NCBI GenBank assembly: GCA_001447805.1 | Contig: CP013099.1 | Span: 248,001 to 312,000 of the forward strand | Direction of reading: 5' to 3' | Length of the DNA stretch: 64,000 nucleotides | Origin: Candidatus Tenderia electrophaga | GTDB lineage: Bacteria > Pseudomonadota > Gammaproteobacteria > Tenderiales > Tenderiaceae | Part shown: positions 7,816 through 54,256 of the stretch, in pieces | How positions within the stretch are numbered: position 1 is the first letter of the stretch | Layout of the letters: the number at the start of each line of letters is the position of its first letter | The notes under the pieces: generated by a model | Seen by the model: the letters and a program-made list of their open reading frames with translations, nothing else | What the model was told of the DNA's origin: nothing | The model's database searches: none | Program-made: the position numbers and the translations under genes

Positions 7816-8287
7816 GCGTATTCCGGGTCTGAATCTGGCCAACCCCGTTCATCTGTTGGCCTTCGGGTTCGGCAGCGGGGTGATCCCCAAGGCGCCGGGA
7901 ACCTGGGGGACCTTGGTGGCCGTGCCGCTGTATGTGTTGCTGCAGGGCGTGTCGATGGCGGTCTATCTGAGCCTGGTGTTGGCGTTACTGCTGCTGGGTA
8001 TTTGGCTGTGCGACGTGGCGGCGCGGGACCTCGGCGTCCATGACCATCCCGGTATTGTCTGGGACGAAATCGTGGGCTATCTGATCACCATGATCGCGGC
8101 GCCGGCCGGCTGGCCGTGGTGGCTGGCGGGCTTCGTCCTGTTTCGCCTGTTCGACATTCTCAAACCCTGGCCCATCAGCGCCATTGACAAGGGCGTGGCT
8201 GGCGGCTTGGGTATTATGCTTGATGACATCCTGGCCGGCCTGATGGCCTTGGCCTGTCTACAGCTATGCGCCTGGCTGCTGCTCTGA
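7808..8287 (+). CDS. pgpA: Phosphatidylglycerophosphatase A
   Basis: Inner-membrane enzyme that dephosphorylates phosphatidylglycerophosphate in phospholipid synthesis. Conserved blocks HLLAFGFGSG, PKAPGTWGTL, HDHPGIVWDEIVGY and FRLFDILKPWP match PgpA, with about four hydrophobic segments. No ATG is available near the N-terminus; the best start is TTG at 7808 (TKRIPGLNLANPVHLL), inside the thiL stop and preceded by AAGGGA about 9 bases upstream. That gives 159 residues. Its last 24 bases overlap the 3' end of the convergent GGDEF/EAL gene. Confidence 0.93.
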   Translation: MTKRIPGLNLANPVHLLAFGFGSGVIPKAPGTWGTLVAVPLYVLLQGVSMAVYLSLVLALLLLGIWLCDVAARDLGVHDHPGIVWDEIVGYLITMIAAPAGWPWWLAGFVLFRLFDILKPWPISAIDKGVAGGLGIMLDDILAGLMALACLQLCAWLLL

Positions 8288-29575: not shown

Positions 29576-31738
29576 TTATCCCCGCTTCCAGGTGTGATAA
29601 CGCTCCAGCCACGCCAGCAGCCGTTGCGGCGCATGGGCGCGCTTCCACTCACCGGCGGCATATTTATTCGCCTCCGCCAGCGTGGGATAGATATGAATAG
29701 TACCGAGGATCTTGTTGAGGCCCAGGCCGTGTTTCATCGCCAGCACGAACTCCGCCAGCAGGTCGCCGGCATGTTCCCCGACGATGGTCACGCCGAGGAT
29801 TCTGTCTTTACCGGGAACGGTGAGCACCTTGACGAAGCCGTAGGCCGCGCCGTCGGCGATGGCACGGTCAAGCTCGTCGATGCCGTACTTTGTGACCTCA
29901 TAGGCGATACCTTTGCGCTGTGCATCCTGTTCGTTGAAACCGACGCGTGCCACCTCCGGGTCGATGAAAGTGGACCAGGGGATGACGGAATAGTCGGCCT
30001 TGAATCGTTTCAAGTCGCCGAACAGTCCATTGACCGCGGCGAACCACGCCTGATGGGAGGCGGTGTGGGTGAACTGGTACGGCCCGGCGACATCGCCTGC
30101 GGCGAGGATGTTGGGATAGAGCGTCTCCAGATAGTCATTGGTGACCACGGTACGCTGCGTTTCGATGCCCAACTCCTCCAGGCCGTAGCCTTGCAGGCGC
30201 GCAACGCGGCCGACGGCACAGAGCAGGGCATCGAACTCGATGCGCTGTTCAACCTCGTTGTGCTGGACAACGATGAATTTGCGCGCGTCCCCGTTCGCGG
30301 TCGAGCGTTCACAGCGCACCGCCTCATGGTGGGTGAGTACGTTGACACCACTCTCTTCCAGGGCAGCCTTGGCAAGCCTGGACACCTCTTCGTCCTCATT
30401 GGGCATGATGCGCGGGCCGCGCTGGATTTGCGTCACCTGGGATCCGAGGCGGGCGAAGCTCTGCGCCAGCTCACAGCCGATGGGGCCGCCGCCCAGCACC
30501 ACCAGTCGGGCAGGGGCGTGATCCAGCTTGGCAAACGCCTCCCATACGGTATCGCTGGTGAGGTAGCCGACCTCTTCGATCCCTGGCAGCGGCGGTACGA
30601 AGGGACGCGCGCCGGTGGCGATGACGATGCTGCGGGTGGTGAGCCGCTGCGTGCCGCCGTCCTTGAGTTTGATCTCGACCGTCCAGGGGTCGAGCAGGCG
30701 GGCATAACCCTGCAACACCTCGACGCCGAGTTTGGTGTAGCGCTCCACGCTGTCGTGGGGTTCCACCGCGTGAATCACTTTTTGCACACGGGCCATCACC
30801 TGGCGGAAGCTGAATCGCGCTTCGCCGCGCTCCAAACCGTAGTGATCGGCGCTGCGGATCTGCTGCGCCAATTTGGCGCTTTTGATAAGGGCCTTGCTTG
30901 GGACGCAACCATAGTTCAAGCAGTCGCCGCCCATCTTGTGTGCTTCGATCAAGGTGACTTTCGCCTTCACCGCGGCGGCGATGTAGGCACTGACCAGCCC
31001 CGCCGCACCGGCACCGATGACGATCAAGTTGCGATCATAGCGTTTCGGGCGCTGCCACTTGGCGTAAACCCGGCGGCGCCGAATACGGCGTACCACGCTG
31101 CGGGCGATCAGCGGGAAGAGCCCGAGCAGGGCGAAGGAGAGTACCAGCTCGGGCGAGAGAATGCCGGAGGGGCTTTCCAGCTGACCCAGCTGGGTGCCGG
31201 CATTGACGTAGACCAGGGTGCCCGGCAGCATGCCGATCTGGCTGACCCAATAAAACGTTACGGTGCGCAACGGCGTCAGCCCCATCACCAGGTTGATCAG
31301 AAAGAAGGGGAACACGGGTACCAGCCGCAGGGTGAAGAGATAAAATGCGCCGTCCCTGGCGATACCGTCGTTGATCGTCTTGAGCTTGTCGCCGAAGCGT
31401 TGTTGCACCGTGTCACGCAATAGATAACGTGATACCAGAAAGGCGAAGGTGGCGCCGATGCTGGACGCGAACGACACCAGCACGGTACCGAAAGTCAGGC
31501 CGAACAGGGCGCCCGCGGCCAGCGTCATCACCGCCGCCCCGGGCAGCGACAGTGCCGTGACGACGATATACAGGGCGAAAAAGCTGCCCGCCACCAGCCA
31601 GGGTGACGCCGTGAACAAGGCGTCGAAACGCGCCTGGCTCTGCTTCAGCGTCTCGAAGCTCAGCCACTGGTGGAGATCGAAGGCGAAGAAGGCGATGATG
31701 AGTGTTGCCAGAAGGAATAGCAGTCCGATTCTTTTCAT
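29576..31738 (-). CDS. Fusion of a VTT/DedA-type membrane domain with a disulfide oxidoreductase
   Basis: Residues about 1-225 form a TVP38/TMEM64 (SNARE-associated, VTT) membrane domain with several helices and the VSRYLLRD and LRLVPVFPFFLINLVMGLTP blocks. Residues about 235-720 form a flavin pyridine-nucleotide disulfide oxidoreductase: FAD site IVIGAGAAGLVSA, redox pair GGDCLNYGCVPSK (Cys273/Cys278), NAD site LVVLGGGPIGCELAQ, and a C-terminal dimerisation domain. It resembles mercuric reductase but lacks the N-terminal metal-binding domain and the C-terminal Cys pair of MerA. First large gene of the arsenic operon. Confidence 0.88.
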   Translation of the reverse strand: MKRIGLLFLLATLIIAFFAFDLHQWLSFETLKQSQARFDALFTASPWLVAGSFFALYIVVTALSLPGAAVMTLAAGALFGLTFGTVLVSFASSIGATFAFLVSRYLLRDTVQQRFGDKLKTINDGIARDGAFYLFTLRLVPVFPFFLINLVMGLTPLRTVTFYWVSQIGMLPGTLVYVNAGTQLGQLESPSGILSPELVLSFALLGLFPLIARSVVRRIRRRRVYAKWQRPKRYDRNLIVIGAGAAGLVSAYIAAAVKAKVTLIEAHKMGGDCLNYGCVPSKALIKSAKLAQQIRSADHYGLERGEARFSFRQVMARVQKVIHAVEPHDSVERYTKLGVEVLQGYARLLDPWTVEIKLKDGGTQRLTTRSIVIATGARPFVPPLPGIEEVGYLTSDTVWEAFAKLDHAPARLVVLGGGPIGCELAQSFARLGSQVTQIQRGPRIMPNEDEEVSRLAKAALEESGVNVLTHHEAVRCERSTANGDARKFIVVQHNEVEQRIEFDALLCAVGRVARLQGYGLEELGIETQRTVVTNDYLETLYPNILAAGDVAGPYQFTHTASHQAWFAAVNGLFGDLKRFKADYSVIPWSTFIDPEVARVGFNEQDAQRKGIAYEVTKYGIDELDRAIADGAAYGFVKVLTVPGKDRILGVTIVGEHAGDLLAEFVLAMKHGLGLNKILGTIHIYPTLAEANKYAAGEWKRAHAPQRLLAWLERYHTWKRG

Positions 31739-34736: not shown

Positions 34737-36368
34737 ATGATCAATAAATTTGAAAAGCTCCTGGGGAGATTCAGTTGGCGCACCAAGATATTGGCGCTTA
34801 CGGGCATTCTGGCGATCGGAACCATCGCGGTCGGCGCCATGGGGGCCTACTCGATCCAGAAACTCAGCAAGGAAGTCAATGAGGCCAATGCGCGTTCTGC
34901 GGTGCGCATCAATACGGTGGAAGACGCCCAGTTTGCCCTGTTGCGCATGGGCGTCGCCCAGGCCGAGGTCATCGCCCGCGTCGACACCGGTGAGATCCGC
35001 GCGGCGTCCATCGCGGCCATCAAGGCCGCCAGCCACCTCGACGAGCAGATCGCCAAACTGCGCGAGGTCTTGCCCGAGAGCAAGGAGGTGGTGGAGCTTC
35101 AGGAACTGGTTAAGGAGATCAACCCCAAGCGCATGGAGGTGATCAAGCTGGCACGCAAGGACCGAGACCTGGAGGCGCTGCGCGCGCTGGAGGTGATGCG
35201 GCCCCTGTTTAACCGTGTCGACGAGCTGTCGGAAGCGATTATCAACGGTCAGCGCGAATCTATGAAGCAACAGCTGGTGGAAATCCAGAACACCGGCAAA
35301 CGGACCATCTATATCCTGATGATGTTCGTCGCCGTGGGTTTGATCATAAGCGTGGCCCTGAGCCTGATACTGGCCCGCTTCGCCGTCAAGCCCATGTTCG
35401 CCCTGGAGCAGGCCATGGTGGCCCTGTCGCAGGGTGATCTGCGCGTCAAGCTGGATCAGCCCGGCAAGGACGAGGTCGGCACCATCATCAAGGCCATGAA
35501 CAGCACGGTCTCGGACCTGCATTCCATCATTACCAAGGTACACGGCGGCACCGCCACCTTGAGCAGCCAGGCCGAAAGCGTGGCCCAAAGCGCCGATGAT
35601 ATCCACGGTGTTTCCACCCGCCTGCACGGCAGTGTCAAGGGCATCAAGGAAGATGCCGAGATCGTCATGTCCACCACCAACGGCGCGGTGAGCGAACTCG
35701 AGGGTGCGGCGGTCAAGGCGCAGCAATCGGCCGACACCTCCGCGAACATGGCGCACAAGATCAATGATACCGCCGTCAGTTTCGAACGCTTCCAGGAGCA
35801 CATGGAACACACCGCCCAGGTGACACGCGAACTGTCCCGCACCGCCGAGACCATCACCGCCATTACCAAGACCATTCGCGACATCTCATCCCAGACCAAT
35901 CTGTTGGCCCTCAACGCCGCCATCGAGGCGGCCCGTGCCGGGGAGCAGGGCCGCGGCTTCGCCGTCGTCGCCGACGAAGTGCGTCAGCTGGCGTCGCGGA
36001 CCGAAGACGCGACCTCGGAAATCTCCGGTCTGGTGGAGACCATTTCCACCAGCGTCGGCAACGCGGTGCAGCTGCTCGAGAGCTCGGTCAGCGAATCGCG
36101 CGAAAACATCGGCCGGCTGAAAGAGGTGTCGGAAGAGACATCAATGAGCCGCGACCAGGCGGTGCATCTGCGCGATGTGATGCATGAAGTGGTGCAGATG
36201 ATCGGCGAGCAGGAGCGCGCCGTACAGGGTATCAACGAGGCCGTCAACTCACTGCTGGAATTGAGCGGTGAGACTAACAGCCAGACCGAGCTGCTGCACG
36301 GCCTGTCGGGCGATCTGAACGCCGCCGCTGCAGATTTAGGGCATGTTGTCGATAAGTTTAAGTTGTAA
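34737..36368 (+). CDS. Methyl-accepting chemotaxis protein
   Basis: A 543-residue chemoreceptor: membrane helix 1 (about 18-38), a periplasmic helical bundle (39-188), helix 2 (about 190-211), HAMP, and the signalling hairpin whose tip is [21 protein letters not shown] followed by [20 protein letters not shown]. The periplasmic region is all-helical with no haem or PAS motif, so the ligand is unknown. It has no C-terminal CheR-docking pentapeptide. Only 52 bases separate it from the peroxidase gene, which may place it in the electron-transfer operon. Confidence 0.94.
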
Positions 36369-36420
36369 TCAATGCATTAAATTCCGGTTTATCCGGCCAT
36401 AACATTATGAGGAGGAACTC

Positions 36421-37473
36421 ATGAAAACAGGTGCCTTGCGTCAGAAAAGTCTGACAGGGAAAATTGCCGCCGCGCTGTTCGGGATGTCGGTGGTTCTGGG
36501 TGTAACCGCCGCCAATGCGGCACCCATGGAACCCAGCGCCGAGGATATCAAGAAATATTTGCGTCCCATGGAAGTGCCGCAACCGAAAAAGAACCTCAGC
36601 ACACCCGAACGCGTCGAGCTGGGCAAGTTTTTGTTTTTCGATCCGCGCCTGTCCGGTTCCAATTTCATCAGCTGCGCCACCTGCCATAACCCCGCCATGG
36701 GTTGGTCGGATGCCCAGCCCACCGCGGTGGGTCACGGTATGGACACCCTCGATCGGTCAACACCGACCATTCTGAATACCGCTTATCAGCGCTTCCAGTT
36801 CTGGGACGGTCGGGCGCGCACACTTGAACAACAGGCCCTGGGGCCGATCGTCGCCGGCGGTGAAATGGCTCAGGAAATGGGTTCGCTGCTTGAAGAGCTG
36901 AAGGGGATTCCGGGCTATATCGAGATGTTCGAGGCCGCCTATCCGGGTGAGGGCATCAAGGAAGATACCATCGGCAAGGCCATCGCCGCCTACGAACGCA
37001 CCATCGTGTCAACCGATGCCCCCTTCGATCGCTGGCTGAAAGGGGTGGATGGCGCCATGAGCAAATCCGCTATCCGCGGCTTCGAAGTCTTCAAGGGTAA
37101 GGCCAATTGCACCGCCTGCCATGACGGTTTCAATTTCACCGATAACGGCTTTCACAATATCGGCCTGCCCGACAACGCCGACGAAGGCCGTTTTGGCATC
37201 GTGCCGGTGAAAGTATTGAAAGGCGCATTCAAGACGCCGACGCTGCGCGATGTAGCGCTGACCGCGCCTTATATGCATAACGGCCAATACGCCACGCTCG
37301 AAGAAGTGGTGGAGCACTACAACAGTGGTGGTAAGCCGACCTTCGATAACCTTGATCCGAATATGAAACCGCTTAATCTTACCAAGCAGGAAAAGCAGGA
37401 TCTGGTGAACTTTTTGAAAGCGTTGACCGGCGATCCGATGCAGGTCACTGTGCCCCAGTTGCCGGTCAAATAA
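36421..37473 (+). CDS. Diheme cytochrome c peroxidase (CcpA/MauG family)
   Basis: A periplasmic 350-residue protein with a signal peptide (1-33, ending ANAA). Two haem c motifs: CATCH (Cys85, Cys88, His89) and CTACH (Cys230, Cys233, His234). Family markers LGKFLFFDPRLSGSN, RSTPTILNTAYQRFQFWDGRA and APYMHNGQYATLEEVV, the last holding the Met ligand, fit bacterial diheme peroxidases, which reduce hydrogen peroxide with electrons from small cytochromes or cupredoxins. GAGGAGG precedes the ATG. The cupredoxin and cytochromes just downstream are natural donors. Confidence 0.93.
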   Translation: MKTGALRQKSLTGKIAAALFGMSVVLGVTAANAAPMEPSAEDIKKYLRPMEVPQPKKNLSTPERVELGKFLFFDPRLSGSNFISCATCHNPAMGWSDAQPTAVGHGMDTLDRSTPTILNTAYQRFQFWDGRARTLEQQALGPIVAGGEMAQEMGSLLEELKGIPGYIEMFEAAYPGEGIKEDTIGKAIAAYERTIVSTDAPFDRWLKGVDGAMSKSAIRGFEVFKGKANCTACHDGFNFTDNGFHNIGLPDNADEGRFGIVPVKVLKGAFKTPTLRDVALTAPYMHNGQYATLEEVVEHYNSGGKPTFDNLDPNMKPLNLTKQEKQDLVNFLKALTGDPMQVTVPQLPVK

Positions 37474-37507
37474 TGCCAGTTATTCAAGGATAGAAAGGAG
37501 AAATTTT

Positions 37508-37843
37508 ATGTTAAGCAAGAAAACGGTTGCTGTAGGTCTGGTCACCATGTTGTTGTCGGCTACAGCAAGTGCGGCGGATTACACCGTCGCGCAGAACAAC
37601 AAGACCTTCAAGAAAGGCGGTGAGAAGGTTGAGAATATGACGATTCAGGCGGGGGATACGGTTCATTTCAAGAATGAAGACCCCTTCTTTCACAACATCT
37701 TTTCATTGTCTGACCTCAAGACGTTCGACCTGGGCTCCTATCCGGCTGGCGAGTCAAAGGCGGTGACCTTTGACGAGCCCGGCGAAGCCGAGATCGAATG
37801 CGCCATTCATCCGGAAATGTATATGGTGATCGAGGTCCAATAA
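37508..37843 (+). CDS. Periplasmic type-1 copper protein (cupredoxin)
   Basis: A 111-residue protein with a signal peptide (about 1-22). The type-1 copper ligands are all visible: His62 (FFHNIF), Cys98, His101 and Met104 (ECAIHPEM). Such plastocyanin-like proteins shuttle single electrons in the periplasm. AAGGAG lies ahead of the ATG. Its stop overlaps the start of the next cytochrome (TAATG), so the two are co-translated. A function as electron donor to the peroxidase or to the multihaem proteins is inferred from position. Confidence 0.92.
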   Translation: MLSKKTVAVGLVTMLLSATASAADYTVAQNNKTFKKGGEKVENMTIQAGDTVHFKNEDPFFHNIFSLSDLKTFDLGSYPAGESKAVTFDEPGEAEIECAIHPEMYMVIEVQ

Positions 37844-38523
37844 TGAAGTCATCATGGATGATCGTAGGGATGGCGGTACTGGCTATGTTGGTCGGTACCG
37901 CCGGTCCGGCGCAGGCAGACGGGCGGGATTCGCGTAAGGATATTCGGGCCGCCAAATCCAATCCGCAGATCAGGGGCGCGATTGTCTATAAGAGCTACTG
38001 CGTGCTTTGTCACGGCCATCGTGGCGACGGCATGGCCCGGGCGACCAAGCTCTATGGTCAGGGCAACCTGATGATTGCGATGCGTGATCATGACCTCGCG
38101 TTTTACGAAAAAATGGTGCGCCAGGGCGGTCCTGCCGTAGGACGATCCGAGTTTATGCCCGCCTGGGAGGATGAACTGTCGGAAGAACAGATCACCGACG
38201 TGATGGCGTATTTGCAGGTGTTGACCGATCCGGTGGTGCGCGGTAGGGCGGTGTTTATGACCAATTGCATCCTGTGTCACGGGGTCAAGGGCAATGGTAA
38301 GGGACGCGCTTCCGTGCTCTATGATCCGCCGCCCGCGGATCTGACCCGCAGCGACAAGAATGATATGTATAAAAAAATGATTATCACCATGGGCGGGGCG
38401 GCCATGGGGCGCTCGGAAGTGATGCCCCAGTGGGGCTTGCAGCTCAAGGAAGAAGAGATTGACGATGTAATCCTGTATCTGAGAACCATTCTGGTTGACC
38501 CGAAAAACAGTAATGCCAACTAG
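37843..38523 (+). CDS. Diheme c-type cytochrome, one module
   Basis: A 226-residue periplasmic cytochrome with a signal peptide (1-25, ending AQA). Two haem sites: CVLCH (Cys53, Cys56, His57) and CILCH (Cys142, Cys145, His146). Each is followed about 48 residues later by a GRSE(F/V)MP segment whose Met105 and Met194 are likely sixth ligands. The two halves resemble each other, pointing to an old duplication of a class I cytochrome c. ATG 37843 overlaps the cupredoxin stop; an upstream ATG at 37798 lies inside that gene. Confidence 0.93.
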   Translation: MKSSWMIVGMAVLAMLVGTAGPAQADGRDSRKDIRAAKSNPQIRGAIVYKSYCVLCHGHRGDGMARATKLYGQGNLMIAMRDHDLAFYEKMVRQGGPAVGRSEFMPAWEDELSEEQITDVMAYLQVLTDPVVRGRAVFMTNCILCHGVKGNGKGRASVLYDPPPADLTRSDKNDMYKKMIITMGGAAMGRSEVMPQWGLQLKEEEIDDVILYLRTILVDPKNSNAN

Positions 38524-40647
38524 GACTCACGCATGATAACAGCGGGCTTAAGGGCAAGTATCGTCGCTAAAGTAATTGTGGTTTTTTCCACGGCCTTATT
38601 GCTGGGTGGTCAGAGTATTGCCGCTGACAATGCTGGCGGTCGGGAAAGTCGGAAGGACGTGCGCAGTGTTATGCAGGCTGCCAAGGATAAGGCAAAGCAG
38701 GCCGCGCGCGGTGCGGTGGTGTACAAGGCCTATTGCGTGTTGTGCCACGGTGCGCGAGGCAATGGCAGTTCACGTATGACCAAGTTGCGTAGCGATATCA
38801 GCCTCAAGATCGGCAATAAAGCTCTGGATTATTATGACCAGATTGTACGTAAGGGCGGTCCGGCTGTGGGGCGCTCCGAGTTTATGCCGGCATGGGACAG
38901 TGAACTTACCCACGAACAGATCGACGATGTGGTCGCCTATTTGGCTTTGGTGAACGATCCGGTGCGTCGCGGTGAGGTGGTTTTCAAGACCAACTGTATC
39001 CTATGTCACGGTGTAAATGGTGACGGTAAAGGACGTGCCTCGGAGCTATATGACCCACCGCCGGCCGATCTCACCCGCAGCGAAAAGAACAATGACTATA
39101 AACGTATGATCATCACGAGGGGAGGCGCCGCGATGGGGCGCTCGGCGGTAATGCCCGAGTGGGGCTTGCAGTTGAAAGACCAAGAGATTAACGATGTAGT
39201 CGCCTATCTTGAAACCATTCTGGTTTCGTCCGCGCCGTCGAGGCTGGCACAGGATATCGTCGTGCCGCAACCGAAATCGAACAGGAAAACCAGGGGGTCC
39301 AAGGTCCACAGCGTGGTCCAGGGCGCCAAGGATCAAGCCCATCAGGCGCAGCGCGGCGGTTTGGTATACAAGGCCTACTGTGTGCTGTGCCACGGTGCCC
39401 AAGGTAAAGGCGGATCGCGCATGACGAAACTGCATGGTGATCTGCAATTAGAAATTGGCGTGCAGTCGACCGAACATTATCAGTCCATCATTCGTGCTGG
39501 TGGCGAAGCTGTGGGAAAATCCGAGTTTATGCCCGCCTGGGAAGACGAGCTTACGGATGAGCAGATCGAGGATGTGGTGGCCTACCTATCCCTGTTGAAT
39601 GACCCGGTACGTCGCGGTGAAGTGGTGTTCAAGACCAATTGTATTCTTTGTCACGGCGTGAACGGCGACGGCAAAGGCCGCGCGGCGGTGTTGTTTGACC
39701 CGCCCCCGGCAGACTTGACGCGTAGCGATAAGAACGATGACTACAAGCGCATGATTATCACCATGGGCGGCGCCGCGATGGGGCGTTCTGACGTGATGCC
39801 GCAGTGGGGTTTGCAGCTGAATGACCAGGAAATTCAAGACGTGGTGGCCTATTTGAGAACGATCCTCCTCGTCTCATCGGCCGAGTAACGGCACGTTTCA
39901 GGTATCAAAGAGGGTTTTATGTTTGGCGTAATACATGGCTATAAAGTGAATGGAGTCTTGGCGGCGATGGTGCTGGGCCTGTTCTTTTTCCTTGCACCGC
40001 TTGGTCAGACGTACGGCGCCGACGATCTCGATGCCGAGCAAAAGAAACAGCTCAAGCATGAGATGAGGGAAAGTCGCAAAGAAATCCGCAAGGTGATGAA
40101 ACAGGCCCGGGATAAGTCTCACCGGGCCGTGCGCGGCAGCCTGGTGTATAAGGCCTATTGTGTGTTGTGTCACGGCGCCAAGGGCGACGGCAACGCCAAG
40201 ATGAGAAAGGTCCATGGCGACCTGCCGCTGACAATTACCAAGCGGTCACCCGAGTACTTCCGCAAGATCGTCGTCGGCGGTGGCGAAGCTGTCGGGCGTT
40301 CCAGGTTTATGCCGACCTGGCAGGATGAACTGACCGACGAGCAAATAGAGGATGTGGTGATGTATCTTTCCATGATCACTGACCCGGTGCGTCGCGGTGA
40401 AATCGTCTTTAAGACCAACTGCATTCTCTGTCATGGCGTCAACGGTGACGGCATGGGGCGCGCCTCGGTGTTGTTCGACCCGCCGCCGGCGGATCTGACC
40501 CGCAGCGACAAGAACGACACCTATAAAAAGATGATCATTACCATGGGCGGTGAGGCCATGGGGCGCTCGCCGGTGATGCCCATATGGGGGCAGGAACTAA
40601 GCGAGGCGCAGATCGACGATGTGGTCAATTATCTGCGCCACATCTTG
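37975..40647 (+). repeat. Four copies of a ~515-base diheme cytochrome module
   Basis: The copies are at about 37975-38493, 38710-39222, 39355-39872 and 40135-40647. Each encodes YK(A/S)YCVLCHG, then GRS or GKS with FMP.W, DPV.RG, a CILCHGV.G(D/N)G block, DPPPADLTRS and a GRS..MP.WG..L tail. Protein identity is high across copies, and DNA words such as GACCCGCAGCGACAAGAA recur. Confidence 0.85.
38533..39888 (+). CDS. Tetraheme c-type cytochrome made of two diheme modules
   Basis: A 451-residue periplasmic protein with a signal peptide (about 1-31). The haem motifs alternate CVLCH (Cys68), CILCH (Cys155), CVLCH (Cys283), CILCH (Cys370), each with the GRS/GKSEFMP or GRS(A/D)VMP Met segment downstream. 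Residues 60-230 and 275-446 are near-copies, joined by a linker (about 231-274) that repeats the basic helix seen after the signal peptide. It therefore arose by tandem duplication of the whole diheme unit. It lies 9 bases after the preceding cytochrome. Confidence 0.93.
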   Translation: MITAGLRASIVAKVIVVFSTALLLGGQSIAADNAGGRESRKDVRSVMQAAKDKAKQAARGAVVYKAYCVLCHGARGNGSSRMTKLRSDISLKIGNKALDYYDQIVRKGGPAVGRSEFMPAWDSELTHEQIDDVVAYLALVNDPVRRGEVVFKTNCILCHGVNGDGKGRASELYDPPPADLTRSEKNNDYKRMIITRGGAAMGRSAVMPEWGLQLKDQEINDVVAYLETILVSSAPSRLAQDIVVPQPKSNRKTRGSKVHSVVQGAKDQAHQAQRGGLVYKAYCVLCHGAQGKGGSRMTKLHGDLQLEIGVQSTEHYQSIIRAGGEAVGKSEFMPAWEDELTDEQIEDVVAYLSLLNDPVRRGEVVFKTNCILCHGVNGDGKGRAAVLFDPPPADLTRSDKNDDYKRMIITMGGAAMGRSDVMPQWGLQLNDQEIQDVVAYLRTILLVSSAE

Positions 40648-40668
40648 GTGGTGCCGCCGCCGGAGTGA
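39919..40668 (+). CDS. Diheme c-type cytochrome with N-terminal basic helix
   Basis: A 249-residue periplasmic cytochrome, third of the set. Signal peptide about 1-33 (ending TYGA), then a charged helix (KKQLKHEMRESRKEIRKVMK) longer than in its paralogues, then the diheme module: CVLCH (Cys81, Cys84, His85) and CILCH (Cys168, Cys171, His172), with Met131 and the VMP Met as probable axial ligands. GAGGG precedes the ATG. A strong terminator follows about 80 bases after the stop. Confidence 0.93.
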   Translation: MFGVIHGYKVNGVLAAMVLGLFFFLAPLGQTYGADDLDAEQKKQLKHEMRESRKEIRKVMKQARDKSHRAVRGSLVYKAYCVLCHGAKGDGNAKMRKVHGDLPLTITKRSPEYFRKIVVGGGEAVGRSRFMPTWQDELTDEQIEDVVMYLSMITDPVRRGEIVFKTNCILCHGVNGDGMGRASVLFDPPPADLTRSDKNDTYKKMIITMGGEAMGRSPVMPIWGQELSEAQIDDVVNYLRHILVVPPPE

Positions 40669-40746: not shown

Positions 40747-40770
40747 ACCCGGCCCGGCGCCGGGTTTTTT
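40747..40770 (+). terminator. Rho-independent terminator after the cytochrome genes
   Basis: ACCCGG and CCGGGT flank a GC-rich loop (the centre CCCGGCGCCGGG is itself a palindrome), followed by six T. This is the clearest terminator in the window and ends the cytochrome transcript. Confidence 0.85.
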
Positions 40771-40858
40771 GTGCGCGCCCGGCATGTGCGTCCTCCAGGA
40801 GGCGCACGCCCTCCCGTAAGTCGGCCACAACGAATCAGGGGACGCGCCACCACCGGGC

Positions 40859-43815: not shown

Positions 43816-46800
43816 ATGTCGCCGTACAAAAATCACGAACGTCAACACATAATCAAGCGTATTACCGACCTGGTTGAAGAGCGGCTGGCGCCCCGCGAGG
43901 CCGAGCAGGTCCAGCTGTTCGCCCTGCAATACTATGCCGCCAGCGCCATCGAGGATCTGCACCAGCGCTCCATCGACGATCTATACGGTGCCATGCTGGC
44001 GCAATGGCGCTTGGCGCGGCAGCGCCGCCCGGGTCAGGTGCTGGTGCGGGTCTACAATCCCGACTTCGAGCAGCACGGCTGGCAATCCACCCACACCGTC
44101 TTCGAGGTGGTGGCCGACGACATGCCGTTTCTGGTGGATTCACTCAGCATGTTGTGCGTGCGTCTGGAGTTGACCACCCATCTGGTGATCCACCCCGTCA
44201 TCGACGTGCTGCGCGACGGCAACGGATTGATCCAACAGCTGTTGCCGCGGGTGCGCAGCGGCGAGGGACAGAGCGAGGCGATGCTGCATTTTGAAGTCGA
44301 TCGTCAGACCGATGACGCCGCCCTTGCCCTGTTGCAAACGCAGGTCGAACAGGTGCTCGGCGACGTCGGCGTGGTGGTGCAAGACTGGGGTCCCATGCGC
44401 GCCAAGATCGAGGAGATCATCCCCGTGGTTGAGGCCCAGGCCTTGCCGGTGCCGCCGCAGGTGAAGCAGGAGGCGCTCGCCTTTTTGCGCTGGATCGCCA
44501 ATCACCATTTCACCTTCGTCGGCTTTCGTGCCTATGACCTGGTGCAGGAGAACGGCCAGGATGTGCTGCGCCTGGTGCCCGGTTCCGGCCTCGGCATTCT
44601 GCGCGAGAGCGAAGCCGACGGCGGCCGCGCCTCGCACAGCTTCGCCCATATTCCGCCGCCGCTGCGCAAATTGGCGCGCCAACGCACCCTGTTGATTATC
44701 ACCAAATCCACCGCCGTTTCCACCGTGCATCGTCCCGTGCACCTGGATTACATCGGTATCAAGCGCTACAACGGCGCCGACGAGGTGGTCGGCGAGTGGC
44801 GATTTCTCGGCCTCTACGGCTCGGCGGCCTACAGCGCCCGGCCCGCTGACGTTCCGATCTTGCGGCGCAAGTTCGATGCGGTGATGGAAAAGGCTGGCTT
44901 TGCCGTGGCCAGCCATGACCGCAAGGCCCTGCAGCACATTTTAGAAACCTTTCCGCGCGACGAGATGTTCCAGTTCACCGAGGACGAACTGTTGGACGTG
45001 GCCTTGGGCATCCTGCAGGTGCGTGAGCGTCACAAGCTGGGGTTATTTCTGCGCCGTGACCTGTTCGGCCGCTTTGTCACCGCCTTGGTCTATGTGCCGC
45101 GCGATCGCTACGACACCCACCTGCGCCAGCGCATCCAGGAGATCCTGATGCAGGCCCTGGACGGCCAGGGCTGCGAATTCAATATTCAGTTGTCGGAATC
45201 GCCGCTGGCACGGGTGCACTTTATTATCCGCACGCGGCCGGACACGGACGTCAATTATGACGAGGCCGAGCTGCGCGCCCTGATGACCGAGGCCATGGTG
45301 TCGTGGCAGGACGCGCTGCTGAGCGCGCTGCATGAGGAGCTGGGCGAGGCGCGCGCCACCCGCCTGTTCGAGCGCTACGGCGAGGCCTTTCCCCACGCCT
45401 ATCGCGACGACTATCCAGCGCGCACGGCGGTGCATGACATCCAGCGGCTGGAAAGCATCAACGATCGCCAGCCCCTGGCCATGCACCTGTACCGCCCGCC
45501 CGAAAGCGGGGATGAGCTGCTGCGCTTCAAGGTCTTCGGCCGCGAGCAGGCCACGCCGCTGTCCGACATCATGCCCATGCTGGAACGCATGGGGCTGCGC
45601 GTACTGAGCGCCCGCCCCTATCAAATCGAGACCCGCCAGGGAGATTATTACTGGACCATCGAATTCGACATGTTGCCCGCGTTTGATGTCGATGTGGAGG
45701 TGCTGACGGTCAAGGATTTTTTCCAGGAGGCCTTCGCCCGCGTCTGCAGCGGCGAGATGGAGAACGACGGCTTCAACCGTCTGGTACTGGCCGCCGCGCT
45801 CAACTGGCGCGAAGTGGTGCTGCTGCGCGCCATGTGTAAATACCTGTTGCAGACGCGCATGCCCTTCAGTCAGGCCTATATGGAAAACGCCCTGGCCAGC
45901 CATCCCGACATCGCCCGTCAGCTGGTGGCCCTGTTTGCGGCGCGCTTCTCGCCGAGCTCGCAACAGGACGCTGAACGCAGCGTACAACTGACGGGTGCCA
46001 TCAGCGCGGCCCTGGGTCAGGTGGCCAATTTGGATGAAGACCGCATCCTGCGCAGCTTTCTGACCCTGGTGCAGGCCATGCTGCGCAGCAACTATTATCA
46101 GCGCGACGGGCGCGGCCATCCCAAGCCCTATCTGTCCTTCAAGCTCGACTCGCGCGAATTACCCATGCTGCCCCAGCCACGCCCCATGTTCGAGATATTC
46201 ATTTATTCCCCGCGGGTCGAAGGCGTGCATCTGCGCGGCGGCCCGGTGGCGCGCGGTGGGCTGCGCTGGTCCGACCGGCGCGAGGATTTTCGCACTGAGA
46301 TTCTCGGCCTGATGAAGGCGCAGATGGTCAAGAACGCCGTCATCGTGCCGGTCGGGGCCAAGGGCGGTTTCGTGCCCAAGCAACTGCCCGGCACTGAGGA
46401 CCGCGACGCGCTGCAGGTCGAGGTGATCGAGTGTTACAAGACCTTCATCCGCGGCCTGCTGGACATCACCGACAACCTGGTGGACGGCGCAGTGGTCACG
46501 CCCAAGGACGTGGTGCGCCACGACGGTGACGACCCCTACCTGGTGGTGGCGGCGGACAAGGGCACGGCGAGCTTTTCCGACATCGCCAACGGGCTGTCGC
46601 AGGACTACGGTTTCTGGCTTGGGGACGCCTTCGCCTCGGGGGGCTCGGCCGGCTACGATCACAAAAAGATGGGCATCACCGCGCGCGGCGCTTGGGAGTC
46701 GGTCAAACGCCACTTCCGCGAACTCGGCCTCGACACCCAGACCGAACCGTTCAGCGTGGCCGGTATCGGCGACATGGCCGGTGACGTGTTCGGCAACGGC

Positions 46801-48663
46801 ATGCTGCTGTCGCCACAGATCAAACTGGTCGCCGCCTTTAATCATCTGCATATCTTCATTGACCCGGCCCCCGATCCGGCCGCCAGCTTCAGCGAGCGCC
46901 AGCGCCTGTTCAATCTGTCGCGCTCGAGCTGGACCGACTATGACGCCGAGTTGATCTCGGACGGCGGCGGCGTCTACTCGCGGCGCGCCAAGGCCATCCC
47001 GCTGAGCGATGCGGCGCGCAAGGCCTTGGGCACCGATGCCACCACGGTCACCCCGAACGAATTGATACGCATCATCCTTCAGGCCCCCGTGGATCTGCTT
47101 TGGAACGGCGGCATCGGCACCTATGTCAAGGCCTCCTCCGAGCCCCACAGCGCCGCCGACGATCGCAGCAATGACGCGCTGCGCGTCGATGCCGCCGAAC
47201 TGCGCTGCCGCGTGGTGGGCGAGGGCGGCAACCTGGGGTTTACCCAGTCGGGGCGGGTCGAGTACGCCCTCAACGGCGGCCGGATCAACACCGACGCCAT
47301 CGACAATTCCGGCGGCGTGGATTGTTCCGACCATGAGGTGAATATCAAGATCCTGCTGGATCAAGTGGTCAGCGGCGGCGACATGACGCTCAAGCAGCGT
47401 AATCAGTTGCTGGTGGAGATGACCGACGAAGTGGCCCGCCTGGTGTTGAAACACAATTATCTGCAGTCCCAGGCCATCAGCATCGCCGCCATCCAGGCGC
47501 CCTTTCTACTCAGCGATCACGCCCGTTTCATACGGCGCCTGGAAAAAGAGGGACGCCTGCAGCGCACGCTTGAGGCGCTCCCTGATGACGAGCGCATCGC
47601 CGAGCGCGAGGCCCATGAGCACGGCCTGACGCGGCCGGAGATCGCGGTGTTGATCGCCTACAGCAAGGTCCGCCTGTTCGAGGAATTGGTCGCCTCCGAT
47701 GTCACTCGCGACCCCTATCTGTCGCAGGAACTGATCGCCTATTTCCCCGGCCCGGTGCAGCAGCGTTTTGTGCAATCGATGGAACAGCATCCCTTGAAGC
47801 ACGAAATCATCGCCACCCGCATCACCGACAACCTGGTGAACCGTATGGGCGGCAGCTTCTGGACGCGCACCCAGGAGACCACCGGCGACCATGCCGCCGA
47901 CATCGCCCGCGCCTACACCGTGGCGCGCGAGGTGTTTCAGATCGAAGCGCTGTGGGGCGAGATCGAGACCCTGGATAACCAGGTCGGCGCCGATACCCAG
48001 TTGCATATGCTGATCGAGAGCCGCCGCCTGTTGGATCGCGCCACGCTCTGGCTGCTGCGCAACCGCCGACCGCCGCTGGGCATTGCCGAGACCATCGCCC
48101 AATTCCGGCCCGCCGCCGGCGCCATCGCCGAGCAACTCACCAAGCTTTTGCACAGCGATGACCGCAAGGCCCTGCGCGAACGCATACGGCCCTATACCGG
48201 CGCCGGCGTCGCCAAACCCCTGGCCCTGCGCATCGCCGGTCTGGAGACCTGGTATGCCGCCTTGGACATCACCGCAGTGGCCGCCGACACCGACGTCGAT
48301 GTGATGACGGTGGCCGAGTTGTACTTCGCCCTGTCCAGCAAACTGGAGCTGCACTGGCTGGCAGAACAGGTCAAACGCCTGCCGCGCCTCAACCCCTGGC
48401 AGCGCAAGGCCCGCACCGGTCTGTTGGACGAATTGAACAACGAACTGCGTGCCCTGACGCTGCAGGTGTTGAGCCGCACCGACGCTACGGATGGCACGGA
48501 GGCGCGTATCAAGACTTGGTCGCTGCGCAACCGCCTGGCTATCGAGCACTGCCATAACGTGTTTGCCGAGATAAGGGCCGGTGGCAAGGCCGAACTGGCC
48601 ATGCTCACTGTCGCCATGCGCGAGTTGCGGGCCTTGAGTTACGCCAGTGGCGGTACGGAGTAG
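43816..48663 (+). CDS. gdhB: NAD-specific glutamate dehydrogenase, large type
   Basis: A giant (1615-residue) GDH that oxidatively deaminates glutamate to 2-oxoglutarate. The long N-terminal part carries ACT-like regulatory segments; the catalytic core is around residues 800-1250 with GGPVARGGLRWSDR, the lysine loop VPVGAKGGFVPKQ, and GDMAGDVFGNGMLLS. An intact helical C-terminal part follows. The gene is uninterrupted and has GGAG before the ATG. Such enzymes are usually catabolic and allosterically controlled. Confidence 0.95.
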   Translation: MSPYKNHERQHIIKRITDLVEERLAPREAEQVQLFALQYYAASAIEDLHQRSIDDLYGAMLAQWRLARQRRPGQVLVRVYNPDFEQHGWQSTHTVFEVVADDMPFLVDSLSMLCVRLELTTHLVIHPVIDVLRDGNGLIQQLLPRVRSGEGQSEAMLHFEVDRQTDDAALALLQTQVEQVLGDVGVVVQDWGPMRAKIEEIIPVVEAQALPVPPQVKQEALAFLRWIANHHFTFVGFRAYDLVQENGQDVLRLVPGSGLGILRESEADGGRASHSFAHIPPPLRKLARQRTLLIITKSTAVSTVHRPVHLDYIGIKRYNGADEVVGEWRFLGLYGSAAYSARPADVPILRRKFDAVMEKAGFAVASHDRKALQHILETFPRDEMFQFTEDELLDVALGILQVRERHKLGLFLRRDLFGRFVTALVYVPRDRYDTHLRQRIQEILMQALDGQGCEFNIQLSESPLARVHFIIRTRPDTDVNYDEAELRALMTEAMVSWQDALLSALHEELGEARATRLFERYGEAFPHAYRDDYPARTAVHDIQRLESINDRQPLAMHLYRPPESGDELLRFKVFGREQATPLSDIMPMLERMGLRVLSARPYQIETRQGDYYWTIEFDMLPAFDVDVEVLTVKDFFQEAFARVCSGEMENDGFNRLVLAAALNWREVVLLRAMCKYLLQTRMPFSQAYMENALASHPDIARQLVALFAARFSPSSQQDAERSVQLTGAISAALGQVANLDEDRILRSFLTLVQAMLRSNYYQRDGRGHPKPYLSFKLDSRELPMLPQPRPMFEIFIYSPRVEGVHLRGGPVARGGLRWSDRREDFRTEILGLMKAQMVKNAVIVPVGAKGGFVPKQLPGTEDRDALQVEVIECYKTFIRGLLDITDNLVDGAVVTPKDVVRHDGDDPYLVVAADKGTASFSDIANGLSQDYGFWLGDAFASGGSAGYDHKKMGITARGAWESVKRHFRELGLDTQTEPFSVAGIGDMAGDVFGNGMLLSPQIKLVAAFNHLHIFIDPAPDPAASFSERQRLFNLSRSSWTDYDAELISDGGGVYSRRAKAIPLSDAARKALGTDATTVTPNELIRIILQAPVDLLWNGGIGTYVKASSEPHSAADDRSNDALRVDAAELRCRVVGEGGNLGFTQSGRVEYALNGGRINTDAIDNSGGVDCSDHEVNIKILLDQVVSGGDMTLKQRNQLLVEMTDEVARLVLKHNYLQSQAISIAAIQAPFLLSDHARFIRRLEKEGRLQRTLEALPDDERIAEREAHEHGLTRPEIAVLIAYSKVRLFEELVASDVTRDPYLSQELIAYFPGPVQQRFVQSMEQHPLKHEIIATRITDNLVNRMGGSFWTRTQETTGDHAADIARAYTVAREVFQIEALWGEIETLDNQVGADTQLHMLIESRRLLDRATLWLLRNRRPPLGIAETIAQFRPAAGAIAEQLTKLLHSDDRKALRERIRPYTGAGVAKPLALRIAGLETWYAALDITAVAADTDVDVMTVAELYFALSSKLELHWLAEQVKRLPRLNPWQRKARTGLLDELNNELRALTLQVLSRTDATDGTEARIKTWSLRNRLAIEHCHNVFAEIRAGGKAELAMLTVAMRELRALSYASGGTE

Positions 48664-50389: not shown

Positions 50390-53300
50390 CTAGGCTGACT
50401 CCCTTTGTTGTGCATGGGTGACGGCGGACAGCGATCGGCGCTGCCAGTCGTCTTTGTCATAGATGTGGGCGGTGTTGCGTTCCGGGTCGATGATCAGCAA
50501 GCGAATCCAGCCGTTGCGCACCAATTGCTTGACCGCGGCCACCCCTTCGATGGCATGCCAGGCATGTTCGAAGGGGGCTTCGATGACGGTCAGCAGCCGG
50601 ATCGGCTGGTGATAGGGGCGTCCCTGCTCAAGGACCGTCTGCGCGGGCAGGCCGGTGCGCAGGTCGCTGAGGTTGCCGGTCATGACACCGAAGCGCCCCG
50701 AGACGTTGTGATAGGCCTTGCTGCCGCTGCCGAAGCGTTCATTGTCGACGGTGGAAAAATAGTGCTCCATGTTGATCCACTGGCCCACCACCAGCGGCCC
50801 GGTGAGAATGCTTTCCAGCAGCCGGTGGCGGGGGTCGGCGTGGTAATCGTAGGAATGCAGAAAGGCGCGCCCGTCCAGCGGCAGTTGCCGGGTAAGATTG
50901 CGCCGACCGATGATGAAATAGGCATTGCCCGACAGGCCCCACTCGGGCCGTACCTGCGACCAGTCCATGGCGTTGCGATGGGCCAGGCGGTGGGCCGCGC
51001 CGGGATCGAGCGGGGCCGGCGTCGATTGCAATTCCGGTATGCGCTCCTGGGCGCACAGGCGCGAGGCGCCGGTCAATCCCTTGCGCAGGCGATCCAGATA
51101 CACCACGTGGGAGGGCGGCAGCAGGTCGAGATCGAACAGCCTGAGTTCGTCGGTGGTGGTGTCGTGCAGCGCCGCTATAAACCAGCTGTCGTCCGGGATC
51201 TCCAGGCCCTGCTCGCGCAGCTTGTTGCGCACCTGGGCCTTGTTGGCCATCTGGGCCAGCGCACGGGCATTGGTCAGGCCGTGATTGCCGCCGCAGGCGC
51301 CGCAGTCCAGGGCCGACTCGTAGGGATTGTTCTCCGAGCGGCTGCCGTGACCGACCAGCAGAACGAAGCGCGAGAAATCCTGTTGCAGGCCGATGGAGCG
51401 CAGCGCCTGGCCGACAAAATTGACCTGCTCGTCCAGGGTAAAGCCGATGCGTCCCAGTTGTTCCATCTGCAGTTGGGCAAAGGCGGGATCAATGCGGTAG
51501 ACCTGGCGCAGGCGGCGGATGAAGGCTTGTTCGTCGTCGGCGAGCTGCGGACAGGCCCGGCGCAGCGCCGGCGTTGCCGCGGCGTGGCCCAGCGCCGCTT
51601 CGCGCAGCTCGCGCACCATGTCGTCGGTAATCGCTTCGGCTTCGAGCCCGCATTCCTGTTCGAGGGCCTTGGCCACCACGGCGCGCTGTACCGCGCGCAC
51701 GATGGAGTCGGCCTGATCGCGATCCAGCTTGTCTAGCAACAGATGGGTGTTCGGTTTGTCGCGGTGCAGGCCCTGACGCCAGCGGTTGTAGCTCTGCGGC
51801 ATGAGCGTCTTGCCCACCATGTCCAGGCCGAACAGCATGCCGATGGCCTCGACGGTGACGTACGGCGTCAGCACCGACTCCTTGAGTTCGTGCAACAGCT
51901 TTTCCAGCGCCGTGAGCGCCTCCACGTCCTGGCGCGGTGCGGCGGCCATTTCCAGCACCAGGTGTTTGGGCTTGAGCAAAACCGGGCAAAGGTGGGTTTC
52001 GCTGCCCTTGCCCAATTCCATGAAGCTGATGGGGACGCCGAAGAAACCGGCGATGCCGAAGGTCTGGTAATCGCCGGCGCTTTCCAGGTGACGGCGAATC
52101 CGCTCCGAGCGTGTGTCGATGCAGAACAGCGCCTGGGCAAAGGGACGTTTGTCGCGCGCGGGCGGCGGCGCCAGGTTGACCCGCTGCAGCAGCGCATCCA
52201 TGGCCTGCGCCTCCATGGCATGCAGCCAGATCATGCCTTCTTCAGCTTCGGCATGTTGCAGGGTGCGTAACAGTTCGGCCAGTTGTCGGCGCGACAATGA
52301 CTCAAGCGCGGCGCCGGCGCCGGCCGTCTCGGCAAGGCGGCGCAGGCGTTGCGCCTGGGCCTCGGCTTCGTGGCGGCGCTTGGCCTGCGCATATTCGGCG
52401 AACAGTTTCTCGACGGCACGGGGGCGTGCGCGTGCCAGTGTCTGTTCGACCCGTTGGGCATAGGCCGGCAAGACGGCGCCGCTGTGCAGTTCATGGCGCA
52501 ACCAGGTTTCCTGCGGGCGCTCGTCGACGGCCGCTTCAATGGCGGTGCGCTCGCTGGGGATGCCTTCGCGTCCGCGTTCGCTGAGCAGCGCCAGGGCCAG
52601 GGTCAGGCGGATGGCCATGAAGTCGACCAGATCGGCCGGATAGCGTCGGCTCCAGTGATAGTGCTTGGCGCTGGCGCGCCAGCGGATGAAACCGGCCCAG
52701 CCGTGCAGGCGCGCCAGCTCGCGTGAAAAGCAGGCGACCCAGCGATCCTCGGGAACGCCCAGGGTTTGCATCACGAAGGCGATCACCGCTTCCGGGCTGT
52801 TGCCCTTGGCCAGCACCTCTTTGATGTGCAAACCGCGCAGGAACAGTCGGCCGTTACGCGTCGCCAGTTCACGCCAGGCGCTAAACAGGCCCTGCTTGCG
52901 CCCCGGCATGCGCCACACCGACTGGCCTTCGTCAAAGAAATCGAGACAGCTTTTGATCACCAGCTCATCCAGCTCGGCGCCGATTTCGGTGCCATAGAGG
53001 GTGTCCACGGTTTCGTAAAATGGCTGGTCACCCAGCAGTGCCTCACGCAGCTTCGTCGTAAGCGCGGCCGGGTCGACGGCGGTATCCATTTCGGCGGGCT
53101 GCCGCTGGAGCGCGGCATGCACGTCGTCGGCTTCGGCCAGGGAACATGGCGACGCTAACGCTTGTTGGCTGCGCGTCAGCAGGGTCATTAACCAGTGCGA
53201 CAGATCGATGCCGGGGATGGAAGCTTGTTGCGCCACGAAGCGCTCGATGTTGTGCGCCAGCGCGTCACGGTCCACCTTGCCCTGGGCCAGATAATGCTGG

Positions 53301-53500
53301 TAATCGCGGCGCGGCAGGAAGCCGCGGCCGTGAAACAGCCGCGCGCCGGTTTCCACCGCCTGGGGAAAGGGCAGGTGCTCCAGGCCGTGCAGCGGGTTGT
53401 GATGAATGAACGAGCGCATGGGCCAGAAAAACGGAATGGCTTCGCCGGCCACATAAATCATAGTGCGGATTTGCAGCGTTTGACCCAGCGGTAAGGTCAT
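50390..53500 (-). CDS. dabA: DabA, zinc-containing subunit of the DAB inorganic carbon pump
   Basis: A 1036-residue member of the former DUF2309 family. Together with DabB it takes up CO2 or bicarbonate, using a beta-carbonic-anhydrase-like zinc site. The four ligand positions can be seen: Cys460 and Asp462 (FCIDTRSE), His718 (VGHGSRSENNPYESALDC) and Cys733 in CGACGG. The start is ATG 53500, overlapping the upstream gene as ATGA with GGAGGA ahead; longer in-frame extension upstream has no family match. Cytoplasmic, membrane-attached through its partner. Confidence 0.94.
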   Translation of the reverse strand: MTLPLGQTLQIRTMIYVAGEAIPFFWPMRSFIHHNPLHGLEHLPFPQAVETGARLFHGRGFLPRRDYQHYLAQGKVDRDALAHNIERFVAQQASIPGIDLSHWLMTLLTRSQQALASPCSLAEADDVHAALQRQPAEMDTAVDPAALTTKLREALLGDQPFYETVDTLYGTEIGAELDELVIKSCLDFFDEGQSVWRMPGRKQGLFSAWRELATRNGRLFLRGLHIKEVLAKGNSPEAVIAFVMQTLGVPEDRWVACFSRELARLHGWAGFIRWRASAKHYHWSRRYPADLVDFMAIRLTLALALLSERGREGIPSERTAIEAAVDERPQETWLRHELHSGAVLPAYAQRVEQTLARARPRAVEKLFAEYAQAKRRHEAEAQAQRLRRLAETAGAGAALESLSRRQLAELLRTLQHAEAEEGMIWLHAMEAQAMDALLQRVNLAPPPARDKRPFAQALFCIDTRSERIRRHLESAGDYQTFGIAGFFGVPISFMELGKGSETHLCPVLLKPKHLVLEMAAAPRQDVEALTALEKLLHELKESVLTPYVTVEAIGMLFGLDMVGKTLMPQSYNRWRQGLHRDKPNTHLLLDKLDRDQADSIVRAVQRAVVAKALEQECGLEAEAITDDMVRELREAALGHAAATPALRRACPQLADDEQAFIRRLRQVYRIDPAFAQLQMEQLGRIGFTLDEQVNFVGQALRSIGLQQDFSRFVLLVGHGSRSENNPYESALDCGACGGNHGLTNARALAQMANKAQVRNKLREQGLEIPDDSWFIAALHDTTTDELRLFDLDLLPPSHVVYLDRLRKGLTGASRLCAQERIPELQSTPAPLDPGAAHRLAHRNAMDWSQVRPEWGLSGNAYFIIGRRNLTRQLPLDGRAFLHSYDYHADPRHRLLESILTGPLVVGQWINMEHYFSTVDNERFGSGSKAYHNVSGRFGVMTGNLSDLRTGLPAQTVLEQGRPYHQPIRLLTVIEAPFEHAWHAIEGVAAVKQLVRNGWIRLLIIDPERNTAHIYDKDDWQRRSLSAVTHAQQRESA

Positions 53501-54255
53501 GACAGTCCTCCGATACCATAGACGCCGGCCGCCAATAGCAACAATAGGGCGAGCGCGTAGCTCCGAGTGGCGGCGTGGCTCAGATCCTCGGGCCAGGGCT
53601 CGGCGGCGGGGCCCGCGATCAGCCCCTGCAGCAGACGGGCGCCGGCCCAACTCCACAATAGCCACACGCCGGCCACGCCGAAGCCGATAGCCGGCATGCT
53701 CGGCACGGCTTCGACGAGGGTGGCGAGCATGATGAAAAAGGTCGGGAACAGGGGCGTGGCGATGATTGCCAGCACCACGAAGACCAGTATGCCCGCAAGG
53801 CGCGGGGTGGACTGAGCGAGGCCGCCATACAGTCCGGTATAGGCTGCGCCGAAGCGGCGTTCCAGACCGCGACCGAGTAGGGCGAGCAGGACCAGCGGGG
53901 CACTGAAACCGAGGGCGTATAATTGCAGGGTGGTGATGGGGGTATCACCCTGCAGCGACACCCAGAGCAAGGCCCAGGCGGAGGTGGCCAGAAAACCGAT
54001 CCACTGCCCCACGTCGCGCAGCACCAGGGCGCGCAGGGCGTATAGGCCCGCGGTGATCAGCGCCAGCGGCACCAGCCAGCCCGGTGGCGGGGTGTTCAGG
54101 CTGGAGACGAGCAGCAGGCCGAGCTGCGGCCAGAGCAGCAATAGTGCCGCGCGCAGCACCACCTGCCGGCAGTGCCCCAGCAGCAGATTGAAGCCCATGC
54201 TCAGGGGAAAGAGGGGCAGGAAGATCCCCGCCATCAGGTAAAGTAAGGCCTCCAT
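53497..54255 (-). CDS. Unassigned polytopic membrane protein of the DAB operon
   Basis: 252 residues with about seven hydrophobic helices (for example YLMAGIFLPLFPLSMGFNLL, ILVFVVLAIIATPLFPTFFI). The pattern weakly recalls the C-terminal half of NuoM/NuoN-type proton-channel subunits (the ATPLFPTFF segment), but I do not see the conserved lysine helices clearly. It sits between dabB (1-base gap) and dabA (ATGA overlap), so it is surely co-translated with them. A third subunit or assembly factor is likely; function unknown. Confidence 0.75.
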   Translation of the reverse strand: MEALLYLMAGIFLPLFPLSMGFNLLLGHCRQVVLRAALLLLWPQLGLLLVSSLNTPPPGWLVPLALITAGLYALRALVLRDVGQWIGFLATSAWALLWVSLQGDTPITTLQLYALGFSAPLVLLALLGRGLERRFGAAYTGLYGGLAQSTPRLAGILVFVVLAIIATPLFPTFFIMLATLVEAVPSMPAIGFGVAGVWLLWSWAGARLLQGLIAGPAAEPWPEDLSHAATRSYALALLLLLAAGVYGIGGLS

Positions 54256-54256
54256 C

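Follow-up and report, generated by a model that had tools for sequence, protein, structure and literature searches.

MauG, the di-haem enzyme of methylamine utilisation that is associated with the cupredoxin amicyanin and a mono-haem c-type cytochrome, modifies a protein instead of removing peroxide. The ligation of haem 2, Met/His in canonical peroxidases and Tyr/His in MauG, is a recognised divide between these enzymes, and BthA is a Tyr-ligated bis-Fe(IV) enzyme that is still able to turn over H2O2 (PMC6405878). Blue copper proteins and cytochromes also meet in Acidithiobacillus/Acidihalobacter, where rusticyanin occurs with periplasmic di-haem cytochromes in the Cyc1 relay (PMC5216662). 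For ‘Candidatus Tenderia electrophaga’, the main text of Eddie et al. 2017 describes a cupredoxin, a tetraheme and two diheme genes as a ‘putative electron transfer complex’ whose three haem proteins are differentially expressed and responsive to electrode potential; as presented there, expression of the set is greater at 470 mV and falls into one cluster with that of cyc2 and of a hexahaem lipoprotein (PMC5371394).

We analysed a window of 64,000 nucleotides (C1:248001-312000) from the genome of this bacterium, which comprises two replicons and 3,763,866 bases (the 2017 paper lists two accessions, CP013099.1 and CP013100.1, that would correspond to them), and confirmed the run of six genes on one strand at 34737-40668 that an initial annotation had described. 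The features are as follows.

34737..36368, + strand: methyl-accepting chemoreceptor, 543 amino acids (Pfam 4HB_MCP_1 1.1e-10, HAMP 3.6e-9, MCPsignal 2.4e-35)
36421..37473, + strand: di-haem CCP_MauG enzyme, 350 amino acids (PF03150 1.5e-57)
37508..37843, + strand: amicyanin-like blue-copper cupredoxin, 111 amino acids, exported (PF00127 5.3e-7)
37843..38523, + strand: cytochrome A, two haems, two class I domains, exported (PF13442/PF00034)
38533..39888, + strand: cytochrome B, four haems, two fused di-haem modules, exported (four stretches of PF13442)
39919..40668, + strand: cytochrome C, two haems, exported (PF13442/PF00034)
40751..40772, + strand: probable intrinsic terminator closing the operon; its GC-rich hairpin and T run occupy 40751-40766

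The genes are spaced by 52, 34, -1 (the TAATG overlap), 9 and 30 bases, an operon-like arrangement, and the open reading frames and Pfam domains agree with the layout first reported, including the cytochrome haem counts of 2, 4 and 2. A terminator had been placed near 40747; the hairpin found at that end of the operon is graded as probable, having been singled out by its position in a scan that was overall barely above chance (8 versus 5.8 +/- 2.5). Signal peptides had been ascribed to all six products. Judged by eye, the enzyme, the cupredoxin and the three cytochromes do carry export signals, whereas the receptor has a membrane anchor in place of a cleavable signal peptide.

Elsewhere in the window, the minus strand encodes a 720-aa protein (29576-31738) in which a VTT membrane domain is fused to a pyridine nucleotide-disulphide oxidoreductase. 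A DabA-family inorganic carbon transporter subunit (50390-53665) and a proton-antiporter-like protein (54257-55936), also on the minus strand, together span 50390-55936 and are probably a DAB carbon uptake pair, in keeping with an autotroph. A large bacterial NAD-glutamate dehydrogenase of 1615 aa lies on the plus strand at 43816-48663.

The cupredoxin and cytochromes of the window are very probably the set published in 2017, because only one PF00127 protein was found in the genome and the cytochrome family is complete only here. The locus had been put forward as undescribed, and for these four genes the claim very probably does not hold. The words ‘peroxidase’ and ‘chemotaxis’ appear nowhere in the main text of that paper, which mentions neither the enzyme and the receptor nor the wider conservation (PMC5371394), and our literature search returned no paper joining a chemoreceptor, a cytochrome c peroxidase and a cupredoxin. 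The membership of enzyme and receptor, the spread of the conserved unit over at least 11 families, the Tyr ligand and the di-haem duplication in Tenderiales seem undescribed.

The operon is not part of the triheme/undecaheme electron uptake cluster of Tenderia, which sits at G000:C1:3601545-3610222 (L058). That locus encodes, in order, two triheme proteins, a 509-aa protein, a third triheme protein, the products of two further genes and an undecahaem cytochrome, matching Tel_16515-16545 (PMC5371394); the TPR identity of the 509-aa protein was assigned from gene position. By eye, the N-terminal half of this protein seems to contain a cupredoxin-like stretch, and the two genes before the undecahaem cytochrome encode beta-propeller-like proteins.

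The enzyme, with haem motifs CATCH at residue 85 and CTACH at residue 230, had been called a CcpA/MauG-type peroxidase. Its assignment as a di-haem CCP_MauG protein stands, but the predicted ligation of haem 2 is that of MauG and not of canonical CcpA. Among proteins of solved structure it matches MacA and CcpA best, sharing with them the overall fold and the catalytic residues W128, Q138, P142 and E148, which are invariant in 35/35 orthologs. The haem-2 Met ligand of MacA/CcpA, however, is replaced by Y300, and Tyr holds this position in all 35 orthologs as well; the distal His of CcpA (H93 of MacA) is present as H105 and is kept in only 20 of the 35. Y300 also aligns with the Tyr of MbnH, and ungapped coordinates put it at position 294 of the MauG chain (Tyr294). 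We predict from these alignments that haem 2 is Tyr/His-ligated as in MauG and MbnH, which sets the enzyme apart from a classical CcpA. A plain peroxidase operon of the CcpA type, its neighbours being there by chance, would agree with the best overall match to MacA/CcpA and with the retained H105, but the invariant Tyr and the co-inheritance of the neighbours across families make it very improbable.

Alternatively, the enzyme may act in the manner of MauG or MbnH and oxidise residues of a partner (the cupredoxin, a cytochrome or the receptor), with the carriers removing the electrons of the product. The invariant Tyr and the amicyanin-like neighbour argue for protein modification, as does the best NCBIfam model, MauG (TIGR03791). 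The score of 331.1 bits is nevertheless under the cut-off of 443.85, the MbnH model TIGR04039 likewise falls short (221 bits against 362.85), the methylamine dehydrogenase (MADH) light chain, PF02975, was absent from the whole source genome, and no substrate-like gene besides the four members is conserved nearby. We consider such a role unlikely. Alongside these departures from the MauG-amicyanin system, the unit includes a di-haem instead of a mono-haem cytochrome and a chemoreceptor, while the haem-2 Tyr ligand, the amicyanin-like cupredoxin and a c-type cytochrome partner are common to both. With BthA and MbnH the enzyme shares the CCP_MauG fold and the conserved Tyr ligand (PMC6405878), but its partners are different. 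Peroxide removal is an unsafe default for an enzyme with a predicted MauG-type Tyr/His haem 2; turnover of H2O2 is likely yet not to be assumed, because the Tyr ligand is MauG-like but BthA reduces peroxide.

Several homologues depart from the common pattern. In L081 (G062, 7531-8350) two ORFs take the place of a single enzyme gene, owing either to pseudogene formation or to faulty assembly, with cupredoxin, di-haem and receptor genes intact. A 449-aa homologue in L136 (G146, 8089-9435) has three haem motifs and adjoins a cupredoxin, with no separate di-haem protein, and may have gained a cytochrome domain by fusion. Homologues of 60-62% in L143, L144 and L145 (G007, G081 and G210) have no such cupredoxin, di-haem protein or receptor nearby, and these stand-alone enzymes could reveal the role of the enzyme by itself.

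The cupredoxin is the His-Cys-His-Met copper protein that had been recognised. Its ligands H62, C98, H101 and M104 all fall within the set conserved at 90% or more in 31 orthologs, the loop C-x2-H-x2-M is of the amicyanin type, PF00127 scores above its cut-off, and the nine best PDB matches in Foldseek are amicyanin. These features identify it as an amicyanin-like type 1 copper protein.

Both CxxCH motifs are kept in the di-haem modules and an axial Met is present in 42/43 and 43/43 of them, from which His/Met haem ligation may be inferred. In a tree of the 43 modules, cytochrome C belongs to a paralogue lineage specific to Tenderiales that arose there (97/92), and the N and C halves of cytochrome B group with this lineage (98/97), indicating a later tandem fusion. 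Outside Tenderiales, the loci examined have a single di-haem gene per unit, which makes the 2-4-2 pattern an elaboration peculiar to this group; the ‘three modular cytochromes’ of the initial annotation are present in the window but are not a trait of the unit. The cytochromes (60, 142 and 71 bits) do not reach the cut-off of 179.95 of TIGR00782, the model for CcoP (subunit III of cbb3 oxidase). For the di-haem cytochrome, AlphaFold with 12 sequences yielded a poor model (pLDDT 62) that had no fold match at E<=0.001; fold placement stops at class I cytochrome c domains.

The genes do travel together, contrary to the outcome that had been named as refuting the proposal. Of 369 gammaproteobacterial genomes sampled blind, 20 were picked out by possession of the di-haem cytochrome alone; the cupredoxin is present in every one of them and the enzyme in 19 (E<=1e-95), while the twentieth (G062) has the enzyme as two adjacent ORFs. 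In all 25 loci examined outside the source genome that carry a close di-haem homologue, the enzyme and cupredoxin genes lie directly upstream of it on the same strand, a recurrence far above chance. Pairwise co-occurrence among the 369 genomes gives Fisher p values of 1e-23 to 6e-31, which ignore phylogeny and overstate significance. Recurrence across families with changes of order stands apart from this problem: the unit, mostly with an upstream receptor, is found in at least 11 families, and L133 and L137 have the rearranged order receptor, cupredoxin, di-haem, enzyme. The cupredoxin lies immediately beside the enzyme in nearly all loci, and pairs of the two also occur without the di-haem gene (L131, L135, L136 and L139), making them, rather than the cytochrome, the most constant members.

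Looser cupredoxin relatives reveal more loci, in which the di-haem protein is only distantly related. A sample of 398 genomes from outside Gammaproteobacteria contained no close di-haem relative, cupredoxin matches elsewhere in the phylum were weak, a contig search returned only three relatives, and a plasmid search gave only generic ccoP-like matches. The neighbourhoods of the loci contain no further conserved genes beyond ordinary neighbours, such as those for topoisomerase IV. The gene set stays together in many carbon-fixing gammaproteobacteria; the RuBisCO large chain was found in 30/32 holders and 10/24 others, a difference confounded by phylogeny and obtained with a model that also takes RuBisCO-like proteins.

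The receptor consists of a 4HB periplasmic sensor, a HAMP domain and an MCP signalling domain, the composition of a methyl-accepting chemoreceptor, and CheW is encoded in all 36 holder genomes tested, so signalling is possible. Its sensor domain can be aligned outside the family at 26-37% identity; E103 and D144 are invariant in 26 sequences, among which there is no invariant haem or copper ligand. PADLOC returned only weak matches to the receptor. Enzyme, cupredoxin and di-haem genes occur together in 32 loci, and in 27 of these a receptor gene is adjacent or close by, a tally that counts the window and includes a divergent receptor gene in L089 and one 1.7 kb off on the other strand in L142. 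It is absent from the four loci that have only the enzyme-cupredoxin pair. The unit has a core of three proteins, the MauG-type enzyme, the amicyanin-like cupredoxin and the di-haem cytochrome with inferred His/Met ligation, which a receptor accompanies almost without exception. The blind co-occurrence and co-inheritance support the original idea of a periplasmic redox unit that is dedicated and has a receptor to itself.

The reading that we favour, tentatively and with somewhat less than even confidence, is a conserved periplasmic redox operon in which electrons pass from the di-haem cytochromes through the cupredoxin and the MauG-type enzyme to H2O2 while the receptor monitors the pathway. 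The di-haem cytochromes would take electrons from the periplasmic cytochrome pool, whose supply in Tenderia would come from the cathode or from an insoluble donor, and hand them to the cupredoxin, which would reduce the enzyme. The enzyme would use H2O2 as acceptor via a high-valent, bis-Fe(IV)-like intermediate, and the receptor may steer the cell by the oxidant or redox state that the pathway meets. The make-up and order of the genes, their co-inheritance, the intact catalytic residues, the position of the Tyr and the lack of a MADH light chain are results of this analysis; the direction of flow, peroxide as the substrate and the receptor signal are what we infer. The recurrence of the gene order in many families, including its rearranged versions, the strong co-occurrence, the invariant catalytic residues, the constant position of the cupredoxin beside the enzyme, the presence of CheW and the RuBisCO distribution are consistent with this path, for which BthA offers a precedent (PMC6405878). 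On the other side, the frequent loss of the distal His and the role of MauG itself as a protein modifier count against it. Transcripts, moreover, are up at 470 mV, where cathode peroxide is expected, by inference from the main text of the 2017 study, to be lower than at 310 mV (PMC5371394), which speaks mildly against a system that simply clears peroxide made at the cathode.

Higher expression at 470 mV and the clustering with cyc2 and the hexahaem lipoprotein reported there (PMC5371394) would also suit a donor-side relay, in which the di-haem cytochromes and the cupredoxin bring electrons inward from a donor pathway in the outer membrane, involving Cyc2 or a similar protein, and leave the MauG-type protein to mature or protect a partner. 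The relay of rusticyanin and Cyc1 in acidophilic iron oxidisers would be the model, a likeness in putative function only: blue copper protein and periplasmic di-haem cytochromes are common to both, but the window unit has a cupredoxin of the amicyanin type, and its operon adds the di-haem enzyme and the receptor. No PF00127 protein besides the cupredoxin of this unit turned up in the genome, and the di-haem expansion is restricted to Tenderiales, the order of the electroautotroph. The greater constancy of enzyme and cupredoxin than of the cytochrome, the pairs that occur without a di-haem gene and the presence of the unit in many families without established solid-donor use speak against the relay, which we judge possible but on the unlikely side. 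We give rather little credence to a chemoreceptor-coupled MauG-type system in which the enzyme is wired to the cupredoxin/di-haem relay, the receptor senses its state for taxis along electron flow, and the relay was duplicated in Tenderiales for solid donors.

Further work could usefully turn to the predicted Tyr ligand of the enzyme and to the conserved receptor. The locus adds a MauG-type di-haem enzyme with obvious partner proteins and without methylamine dehydrogenase, connects one particular redox pathway of the periplasm with a chemoreceptor, and carries an electrode-responsive gene set of an uncultured electroautotroph over to relatives in many families.
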